Assembly (NCBI RefSeq): GCF_001039475.1
Contig: NZ_LELK01000004.1
Coordinates: 710,981-774,980, forward strand
Origin: Guptibacillus hwajinpoensis
GTDB taxonomy: Bacteria > Bacillota > Bacilli > Bacillales > Guptibacillaceae
Reading direction: 5' to 3'
DNA length: 64,000 bases
Of the stretch, positions 9,517 through 11,663 are shown one piece after another. The notes beneath the pieces were generated by a model. It saw nothing but the letters and a program-made list of their open reading frames with translations. It was not told the origin of the DNA and searched no databases. Every line of letters starts with the position of its first letter. Position 1 is the first letter of the stretch. The position numbers and the translations under genes are program-made.

Positions 9517-10221
9517 ATGTATGCAGCAAAAACCAAAACAAAAATTGTTATAATAGATGACCATCGCTTGTTTCGCGAGGGAGTTAAACGTATTTTAGAT
9601 ATGGAAGACGATTTTGAAGTAATCGCTGAAGGTGATGATGGCGGAGACGCTCTTCGTCTTGTCGAAGATTACAAACCTGATGTTGTATTAATGGATATCA
9701 ATATGCCACACGTCAATGGAGTTGAAGCAACGAGACAGCTTATTGATCAAGTACCCGCAACAAAGGTTATTATCTTATCGATTCATGATGACGAAACGTA
9801 CGTGACTCATGCTGTGAAAACTGGAGCAGCTGGCTATCTCCTTAAAGAGATGGATGCTAACTCTCTTGTTGAAGCGGTGAAAGTAGTTGCTTCTGGTGGA
9901 GCTTACATTCATCCTAAGGTGACGCACAACCTTGTAAATGAGTATAGACGTCTTGCAACAGAAGGAAAAAGACCTTCTACGCAAATCGGTTATAAAGAAG
10001 TTGAATACCGCAAACCGCTTCATATCTTAACGCGAAGAGAATGCGAAGTACTTCAGCTACTAACAGATGGAAAGAGTAACCGCTCAATCGGTGAAGATTT
10101 GTTTATTAGTGAGAAGACAGTTAAAAACCACGTGTCTAATATTCTTCAAAAGATGAATGTTAATGACCGTACACAAGCTGTTGTTGAAGCAATTAAAAAA
10201 GGTTGGGTAAAGGTGCGCTGA
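9517..10221 (+). CDS. degU: Response regulator DegU
   Basis: DegU is the DNA-binding partner of DegS. The 234-residue protein has an N-terminal receiver domain ([18 protein letters not shown]; phospho-acceptor Asp60 in VVLMDINMP; the TxK-type switch region ends in GYLLKEMDA). Its C-terminal LuxR/NarL helix-turn-helix contains [12 protein letters not shown] and [16 protein letters not shown]. The start is ATG 9517 with GGAGGG upstream, and it lies 3 bp after degS, so the two are coupled. A short hairpin terminator begins at its stop codon. Confidence 0.97.
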
Positions 10222-10238: not shown

Positions 10239-10676
10239 GGCTTTTTCTTAAGGCTATGTTAATGAACAATGTTGATATTTGGCTCATTTACGCCGTGTGG
10301 TGCCCATTCGCTTCGAGCAAATGAATTTGCTCAGGCGAATGGGCACCACACGGCGACCTTTCAGCAGAGCTGAAAGGCGAGTGAAACTGAGGTTTCACTC
10401 GAATGAGCCAAAAATCGAGAAAGCCACAATTTGAGCTAACATAGCCTTTCTTAAAGACTATTGCTGTAAGAGTGGTGTAATTTCCGCTGCAGGATGCTCG
10501 CTTTCCGCGGGGCGGGACACTTGAGCCTCCTCGTCGCTAACGCTCCTGCGGGGTCACACCTGTCCCGCTCGTCCTGCAGGAGTCGATCATTCTTCCGCTT
10601 CAATTAGCGAAGTGTGGTTTTCATACAAAGTTACTTTTCCCTTATAGCAAAAGTAACAATGCTGTCGCACACAGCT
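10239..10676 (-). repeat. MITE-like element interrupted by a second element
   Basis: This is a copy of the GC-rich family in inverse orientation, core about 10481-10602. Its outer end is split: GGCTTTTTCTTAA at 10239-10251 resumes at 10455 as AGACTATTGCTGTAAGAG. Removing 10252-10454 rebuilds a continuous terminal repeat like those of the other copies. The other end is diverged (AAAAGTAACAATG, ending near 10676), so that border is approximate. Confidence 0.75.
10252..10446. mobile_element. Cloverleaf MITE with 8-bp target duplication
   Basis: A 195-bp element starting GGCTATGTTA and ending TAACATAGCC. The terminal stem is 10 bp within the element and 12 bp with the flanking A/T (10250-10261 with 10437-10448). 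A second stem of 15 bp with one mismatch pairs 10274-10288 with 10402-10416. Inside lie three back-to-back hairpins: 21 perfect base pairs (10291-10311/10335-10355, topped by an 8-bp stem 10315-10322/10325-10332), 9 bp (10357-10365/10369-10377) and 10 bp (10378-10387/10392-10401). Both flanks carry TTTCTTAA (10244-10251 and 10447-10454), a perfect 8-bp duplication. It encodes no protein, so it is non-autonomous. Confidence 0.88.
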
Positions 10677-10733: not shown

Positions 10734-11663
10734 TTATACGCGCTTAGCACCAAGGTAACGTGGAGCCCAGTAAGAGTTGTCCATATCACTAATTGTTACT
10801 CCGTAAGAAGAAGAAGAGTGGATGAACTGACCGTTACCGATATAGATTCCAGCGTGAGATGGTCCAGCTTTGTAAGTTTCAAAGAATACAAGATCGCCAA
10901 CAGATGGTGAAGAAACGCTATCTGTTGCATTCCAGATGCTTGCTACAGTACGCGGGATTGACTCCCCAGCTTTGTTGTATACGTATTGTAGGAAACCGCT
11001 GCAGTCAAATCCTGATGGTGTAGTCCCTGCCCATACATAAGGTACGCCGATGTATTGCTTTGCAATGGATACAAGAGAAGAGTTAGAAGTTGATGCACTC
11101 TTCACTGAAGAAGATGATTTGCTAGCAGATGCAGCACCAGAAAGTGCTCCAAATGTGTTTGGTCCAGCAACACCGTCAACGCTTAAACCATTTGCACTTT
11201 GGAAGTTACGAACAGCCTGTTTAGTAATGGAGCCGAAAACACCATCTACTGAATAGCTGTAATAACCTTTTGATTTAAGTTGGCTTTGAAGATTTTTAAC
11301 AGTTTGACCGCGGTCACCGTAGCGAACTGTTCCGCTGTTTGAAGAATAGCTGCTAGATTTAGAGGAAGATGATTTAGATCCAGTAAGCGCGCTTACTGTT
11401 TGTGGACCAACAACACCATCAACACTGATTCCTGCGCTACGTTGGAAATCACGTACACCGTCTTCAGTTACCGTTCCGAAATATCCTGTTGCTCTATGGT
11501 AGTCAAAATATCCTTTATCGTCTAATACGTTTTGAAGTTCAGTTACGTCAGAGTTGCTCATGCCATTGTATAGGGTACGGTCGCCTAAAGCTGCTTCACT
11601 TACGGATGGTGCAAACAAAAGAGTACCTGCGAGTGTAGTAGTGATCACGACTTTCTTAAACAT
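10734..11663 (-). CDS. Secreted NlpC/P60 endopeptidase with two PG-binding domains
   Basis: A likely peptidoglycan D,L-endopeptidase acting in the cell wall. The 309-residue precursor has a signal peptide (MFKKVVITTTLAGTLLFAPS, cleavage near SEA-A at residues 26-28). Two PG_binding_1 repeats follow (LQNVLDDKGYFDY... and LQSQLKSKGYYSY...), separated by Ser-rich linkers. The C-terminal NlpC/P60 domain has the catalytic Cys in FDCSGFLQYVY, His in GPSHAGIYIGNG and a third polar residue in FIHSSS. The start ATG 11663 follows AGGGGG. A WalR-type box lies upstream, consistent with a wall-turnover hydrolase. It is in the location between degU and degV but is not part of those operons. Confidence 0.92.
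   Translation of the reverse strand: MFKKVVITTTLAGTLLFAPSVSEAALGDRTLYNGMSNSDVTELQNVLDDKGYFDYHRATGYFGTVTEDGVRDFQRSAGISVDGVVGPQTVSALTGSKSSSSKSSSYSSNSGTVRYGDRGQTVKNLQSQLKSKGYYSYSVDGVFGSITKQAVRNFQSANGLSVDGVAGPNTFGALSGAASASKSSSSVKSASTSNSSLVSIAKQYIGVPYVWAGTTPSGFDCSGFLQYVYNKAGESIPRTVASIWNATDSVSSPSVGDLVFFETYKAGPSHAGIYIGNGQFIHSSSSYGVTISDMDNSYWAPRYLGAKRV

Follow-up and report, generated by a model that had tools for sequence, protein, structure and literature searches.

A 195-bp element on the forward strand of Guptibacillus hwajinpoensis (positions 10252-10446 of the 64,000-nucleotide stretch of DNA that was analyzed, hereafter the window) is, with high probability, a non-autonomous IS1595-type MITE that was presumably mobilized in trans, is nested in an older GC-rich repeat and carries a cloverleaf core, a candidate DNA module, as cargo. 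A nested MITE alone is of a known kind; what is new is the conserved cargo domain, which is found in two unrelated types of bacterial MITE. The species is placed by NCBI in the order Caryophanales, and its genome comprises 4.26 Mb in 14 contigs. Upstream of the element lies a gene of 234 aa (9517-10221, plus strand), matched at the DNA level in 17/17 genomes searched, whose product we take by recognition to be a DegU-like response regulator. The convergent downstream gene of 309 aa (10734-11663, minus strand) presumably encodes, again by recognition, a peptidoglycan-binding / NlpC-P60-like cell-wall protein.

The inverted ends of the element are GGCTATGTTA and TAACATAGCC. It is bounded by perfect 8-bp repeats, as an earlier note on this DNA had described: TTTCTTAA at 10244-10251 and an identical copy at 10447-10454, together forming a target-site duplication. 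On the plus strand, the left part of the GC-rich repeat's terminal repeat as it stood before the insertion (10239-10251, aligned to an uninterrupted copy in the same-genus genome G002) precedes the element, and the remainder of the older repeat follows it (10455-10676, likewise aligned to G002, with a central motif at 10499-10516 and a right end at about 10655-10676). Deletion of the element and one repeat joins 10239-10251 to 10455-10466, and the joined sequence reads as the GC-rich repeat's left end, in agreement with the reconstruction first proposed.

The empty site with a single TTTCTTAA that the earlier note predicted is present in G002, where it reads GGCTTTTTCTTAAAGATTGTTGC. There, 3ʹ of degU, the host repeat end is uninterrupted, holds one TTTCTTAA and continues into the host repeat. 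Aligned to the flanks of the element joined over the element and one repeat, the G002 sequence crosses the junction without a gap; the degU side is nearly identical, degU itself is 93% identical over 656 bases, and the alignment to the host repeat holds to approximately 10620 and is poor beyond. The empty-site comparison covered ten relatives of the genus (G001-G010), among which only G002 has the GC-rich repeat at the 10239-10676 site. Neither the GC-rich repeat nor the MITE is present at the site in G001, G005, G006 and G008, which were read by eye, or in G003, G004, G007, G009 and G010. Further copies of 10252-10446, which the earlier note had asked for, recur in the own genome, and duplications of 8 bp are found across the family. 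The two observations that the note had said would speak against transposition were junctions shared by all relatives and other copies lacking 8-bp flanking repeats; what was found is an empty site in G002 and other copies that do carry such repeats. Its central claim, that a cloverleaf element without a gene transposed into an existing repeat copy, is borne out by the duplication together with a real empty site, and at the level of sequence comparison the movement of the element is demonstrated. The simplest order of events would place the GC-rich repeat first and the MITE second. An origin of the 10244 and 10447 repeats by chance or recombination, and not by target duplication, draws some support from the richness of the 8-bp sequence in A and T, but the family-wide 8-bp duplications and the empty site in G002 make this extremely improbable.

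Seventy-one pieces matching the element are present in the own genome. The 61 own-genome loci examined contain 51 two-ended elements of 68-224 bp, which are short, multicopy and without a transposase gene; at least one of the 51 (224 bp, locus L013) is a GC-rich repeat. A perfect 8-bp duplication flanks 32 of the 51, compared with 4 of 2550 mismatched flank pairs, and 37 of the 51 have 7 or more of the 8 bases duplicated, compared with 48 of 2550; a perfect 9-bp duplication occurs at none of the 51. Sizes of 195 bp (11 elements), 106 bp (8) and 142 bp (5) are the most frequent. In the copy studied, the left terminal inverted repeat, GGCTATGTTA-N8-TGTTGAT (10252-10276, plus strand), has no mismatches, and the right one (10422-10446, minus strand) is imperfect, with 2 mismatches, which corrects an earlier description. 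Allowing at most 2 mismatches, the end pattern occurs in the own genome 75 times in forward and 69 times in reverse orientation, against 0 and 1 for a reversed-pattern control, and some of these matches may be ends of GC-rich repeats, which are similar. The flanks of 37 elements, read on both strands, yield the target consensus YT-N8-AR with an A/T-rich N8, in which T occupies position -1 in 63/74 cases and A occupies position +8 in 63/74.

This preference bears on the choice of site. In GC-rich ends of the GGCTCTTTTCTAAAAGATTGTTG type, CT-TTTCTAAA-AG is present; the MITE landed in this spot because a target of the preferred kind lies in the host terminal repeat, and GC-rich repeats are ready-made landing places because their ends carry a YT-N8-AR site. 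The GC-rich central motif, CGCTTTCCGCGGGGCGGG, occurs 11 times in the 64-kb window with at most 3 mismatches, where 0.02 occurrences are expected; its places include 2204, 5848, 8038, 22036, 28309, 35122 and 62989. No target duplication of the host GC-rich repeat itself is visible by eye. Two insertions are nested in GC-rich ends, the 195-bp element studied (L001) and, in L013, a GC-rich repeat; five further loci with weaker nesting matches (3-5 differences) were excluded from this count. In L013, the 224-bp GC-rich repeat lies inside a GC-rich terminal repeat with 7/8 duplicated bases, which suggests that the GC-rich repeat was itself moved by an IS1595-like enzyme. GC-rich repeat and MITE share GGCT-type ends, and the 224-bp L013 copy has its 7/8 duplication within such an end, although that copy, unlike the MITE, lacks the cloverleaf core. 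Three GC-rich repeats also start one after another in tandem 3ʹ of degU in G002 (L134), an arrangement consistent with recurrent insertion at the target sites that lie within each other's ends. The nested insertion of the MITE suggests a reason for the accumulation of such repeats, namely that the preferred target lies in their own ends.

The element is assigned to the IS1595 type because its ends and duplication length match those of IS1595 elements of other genera; two-ended copies with 8-bp duplications are present in the own genome. Several IS1595-bearing loci have GGCTNTGTTA ends around a transposase gene, and L121, L128 and, with a single mismatch on the left, L119 are bounded by GGCTNTGTTA-N8-TGTTGAT. 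Among the five IS1595 loci with both ends, the 8-bp duplication is perfect in L119 (1723 bp), L121 (1636 bp) and L132 (1180 bp), and matches at 7/8 bases in L128 and 5/8 in L126. NCBIfam assigns the L121 and L119 transposases to IS1595; the L128 transposase match is below the Pfam cut-off. IS1595 insertion sequences and MITEs therefore resemble this element in their GGCTNTGTTA-N8-TGTTGAT ends and A/T-rich 8-bp duplications (L119, L121, L132), and differ from it in that the four-armed core is present here, whereas the terminal 200 bases of those loci appear by eye to be without it. A further ORF lies between the transposase and the right end in L119 (2142-2579) and L121 (2089-2502), and the product of the former presumably resembles a GNAT acetyltransferase, as judged by eye.

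The IS1595 transposase domain PF12762 has matches in 13 of 61 genomes (9 above the cut-off) and none in the own genome, G000, or in any of the 14 genus genomes. A mobilizing transposase in the same genome is usual for such MITEs but not indispensable. ISL3 was rejected as the mobilizer, with transposase matches in G008 only among the 14 genus genomes and none in G000. As neither an IS1595 nor an ISL3 transposase is found in the own genome, the mobilizer is inferred from other genera. The ends, duplications, target preference and empty site are seen directly; the mobilizing enzyme was probably an IS1595 transposase that is now missing from this genome. Acting in trans, such a transposase would cut a YT-N8-AR target with an 8-bp stagger, here a site that the older GC-rich repeat carries in its terminal repeat; the element would insert at the cut, and gap filling would yield the TTTCTTAA duplication.

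The cargo of the element is a four-armed cloverleaf core of 143 nt (10274-10416, plus strand), which shows covariation and matches the model R1 at 160.3 bits, this copy being itself among the 28 cores used in the model. On the same strand, the closing stem P1 pairs a left arm (10274-10288) with a right arm (10402-10416). Within it lie P2, a long hairpin (10291-10355) whose sequence is highly variable between loci; P3, CCTTTCAGC-AGA-GCTGAAAGG (10357-10377); and P4, CGAGTGAAAC/GTTTCACTCG (10378-10401), which shows compensatory changes. Of the four arms, the 106-bp forms inspected retain P1 and P4 alone, joined in a single long hairpin, and the 68-bp form retains only part of P1.

The core extends well outside this family. 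With the 28-core model, it is found in 62/397 genomes and 16/135 genera of the order (E ≤1e-5, strict filters), and in 18/61 relatives at E ≤0.001; in a class-wide sample whose out-of-order share is not given, 6/398 genomes match, each from the same order or the own genome. IS1595-type ends surround the core in the own genus and in G058 and are more eroded in G092, G101, G205 and G383, and some relatives match only approximately positions 22-168 of the element, with the ends missing. Cores without recognizable ends include those of groups g28, g63, g40 and others. One such core lies between an adh-like gene and pgi (the latter confirmed) in 10 of 14 genus genomes (L047, L051, L025-L029, L053, L054 and L056). 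At this place only a 3ʹ remnant is present in G002, most of the core having been lost, and no core is found in G003, G008 and G011, so it is not needed there. In L023, L055 and L113, an outer GGGGAT...ATCCCC inverted repeat takes the place of IS1595 ends; these cores may represent a third type of carrier, or else a single locus with its orthologs. A fixed gene context was ruled out, as neighboring genes and orientations vary between core loci (49 loci by a simple ORF rule, with ten neighbor proteins searched). Carriage by plasmids or phages was likewise rejected: one TIR-less core (L047) has no match in plasmids or phages, the whole element has none in plasmids, and one exact arm pattern has none in viral contigs. 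As for known RNAs, no Rfam family reaches its gathering score in the window, and 18 weak matches in five core loci are each below gathering.

A second carrier is of the IS630 type. In G115, cta and ta border each of the eight core copies examined, giving TA on both sides, and in seven of the eight the borders are cta and tag. These copies have TATAAGTTGAA ends, and ends similar to them flank a 1167-bp IS630 element in G261 (L255), whose transposase is assigned to IS630 by NF033545 at 237.1 bits (cut-off 100); with TA on both sides and the ends of an IS630 element, the G115 copies are classed as IS630-type MITEs. At 3 mismatches or fewer, the IS630-type end pattern is no better than a reversed control in four genomes; the seven places inspected comprise six in G261 and one weak match in G218, and the second end is missing in two of the seven. 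IS630-family MITEs are like the G115 core copies in their TATAAGTTGAA ends and TA target, as in L255, and belong to another transposon family than the window element, with which they have the core alone in common. In a tree of 63 cores (143 columns), IS1595-MITE cores of different genera fall in separate clades and IS630-MITE cores group with those of their own genus. This tree is only a hint, since its sites are not independent, and nothing here rests on it.

The manner in which the core evolves is distinctive. P1, P3 and P4 retain much of their sequence across genera, whereas P2 is strongly divergent between loci yet remains paired; in the adh-pgi group, substitutions per site amount to 0.170 in P2 and 0.056 elsewhere. 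Both sides have changed in 28 of the 52 pairs of the 28-core alignment. In nine ortholog groups, 4184 pairs were compared and 294 had changed on both sides, against approximately 36 expected if the sides were independent; the comparisons are pairwise, so the counts are not independent events, and they exclude L029 and 45 pairs with gaps. L029 (adh-pgi, G012) was left out because the two arms of its P2 derive from different alleles: each resembles another allele and they are unpaired, as in a recombinant. The 294 both-side changes comprise 265 Watson-Crick pairs, 28 broken pairs and 1 G-U pair, and the one-sided changes comprise 104 broken, 39 G-U and 21 Watson-Crick pairs. A mirrored one-base indel is present in L189 and L193. 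In the lspA-ileS intergenic region (g40), the core between the P1 arms lies in opposite orientation in G243 and G284: the flanks match at 383/400 and 379/400 positions (95-96%), and the core at 121/139 when reversed versus 94/119 when direct. This inversion is a single case from one species pair (L217/L218; L187/L179). In the seven g63 genomes retrieved (L169-L175), one core stands at a single position next to a gene for an ABC-transporter ATPase.

As judged from these comparisons, the core is most likely a DNA-level cruciform module, with extrusion and template switching or selection as the probable cause of its pattern of change. The four-armed structure would act as its own module within IS1595-type and IS630-type MITEs, persist at conserved loci where ends are no longer recognizable, and be able to invert in place. 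It would extrude as a DNA hairpin or cruciform, its arms being kept perfect by template switching, selection for structure, or both; paired Watson-Crick changes, few G-U steps, the mirrored indel and the inversion are what hairpin extrusion with template switching would be expected to leave. The broken pairs (104 one-sided, 28 both-sided) count against a DNA module. A conserved fold with extensive covariation is also the usual mark of a functional RNA, and core copies sit between genes, so that the cloverleaf might be a regulatory or processed small RNA carried incidentally by the MITE. This reading is improbable, although the evidence on the two marks expected of a new RNA family, tolerance of G-U pairs and a strand fixed relative to the neighbors, is mixed. 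G-T pairs account for only 76 of 4848 pairs in 82 cores (every distinct core of three alignments; an earlier count on 44 hand-picked cores gave 41/2710), compared with 25 of 406 in a set of 32 terminator-like hairpins, drawn from the window and from 39 own-genome loci. Among changed pairs in the nine groups, the G-U share is 40/458, with 34 of the 40 in g63 and none among the 268 changed pairs of adh-pgi; the one-sided changes to G-U in g63 (34/111 changed pairs) favor an RNA or fit one equally well. The inversion of the core relative to its neighbors in one species pair, the differing neighbor genes and orientations, and the lack of an Rfam family at gathering score further argue against an RNA.

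Two other explanations were weighed. Pairing might be maintained by mutation alone, through hairpin template switching and without function, and direct Watson-Crick to Watson-Crick changes, the mirrored indel and the in-place inversion are all compatible with this; however, conservation of P1, P3 and P4 across genera, but not of P2, is not predicted by a purely mutational process, and such an account is rather unlikely. The conserved sequence of these three arms would seem to ask for more, for example, a binding protein. Cores without ends might alternatively be old MITE insertions whose ends have decayed, with no independent module, a possibility to be taken seriously though somewhat doubtful: eroded ends are readable by eye beside some cores (e.g., L105 and L183-L186), but arms are near-perfect where ends are beyond recognition (L106, L107), orthologous copies change in pairs, and the same core is carried between IS630-type ends. 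Returning to the cruciform DNA module, we propose tentatively, and with less than even confidence, that the core represents a class of bacterial DNA element in its own right. It would be a four-armed cruciform of approximately 141 nt and almost constant geometry, recognized or maintained as DNA, able to persist at chromosomal loci in several genera and to flip where it stands; two or more unrelated transposon families would have acquired it independently as a conserved cargo domain.

The nested insertion illustrates cleanly how an element without a gene can move, but the core matters more. Its near-perfect, co-changing arms, mostly without G-U intermediates, and its inversion look like evolutionary traces left by the extrusion of hairpins or cruciforms in living cells, a process otherwise hard to show, and its many copies ease tests of binding, extrusion and deletion. 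A literature search, with most subscription papers outside its reach, found no description of the core or of IS1595 MITEs of Bacillus, and in the literature searched there was no bacterial parallel to a conserved domain common to unrelated mobile families. Among known bacterial repeats, bcr1 of the Bacillus cereus group has a target duplication shorter than 8 bp, whereas the duplications here are of 8 bp. bcr1 is described as a repeat of approximately 150 bp with the characteristics of a mobile element (PMC2267715), and by that description it is like the present element in being a short, mobile-type repeat. A parallel for the core is offered by the highly conserved domains of SINEs, such as the V domain, a conserved domain that mobile elements have in common and that has spread together with a DNA transposon (PMC6887750); the V domain belongs to eukaryotic retroposons, whereas the core described here is a cloverleaf in bacterial MITEs.
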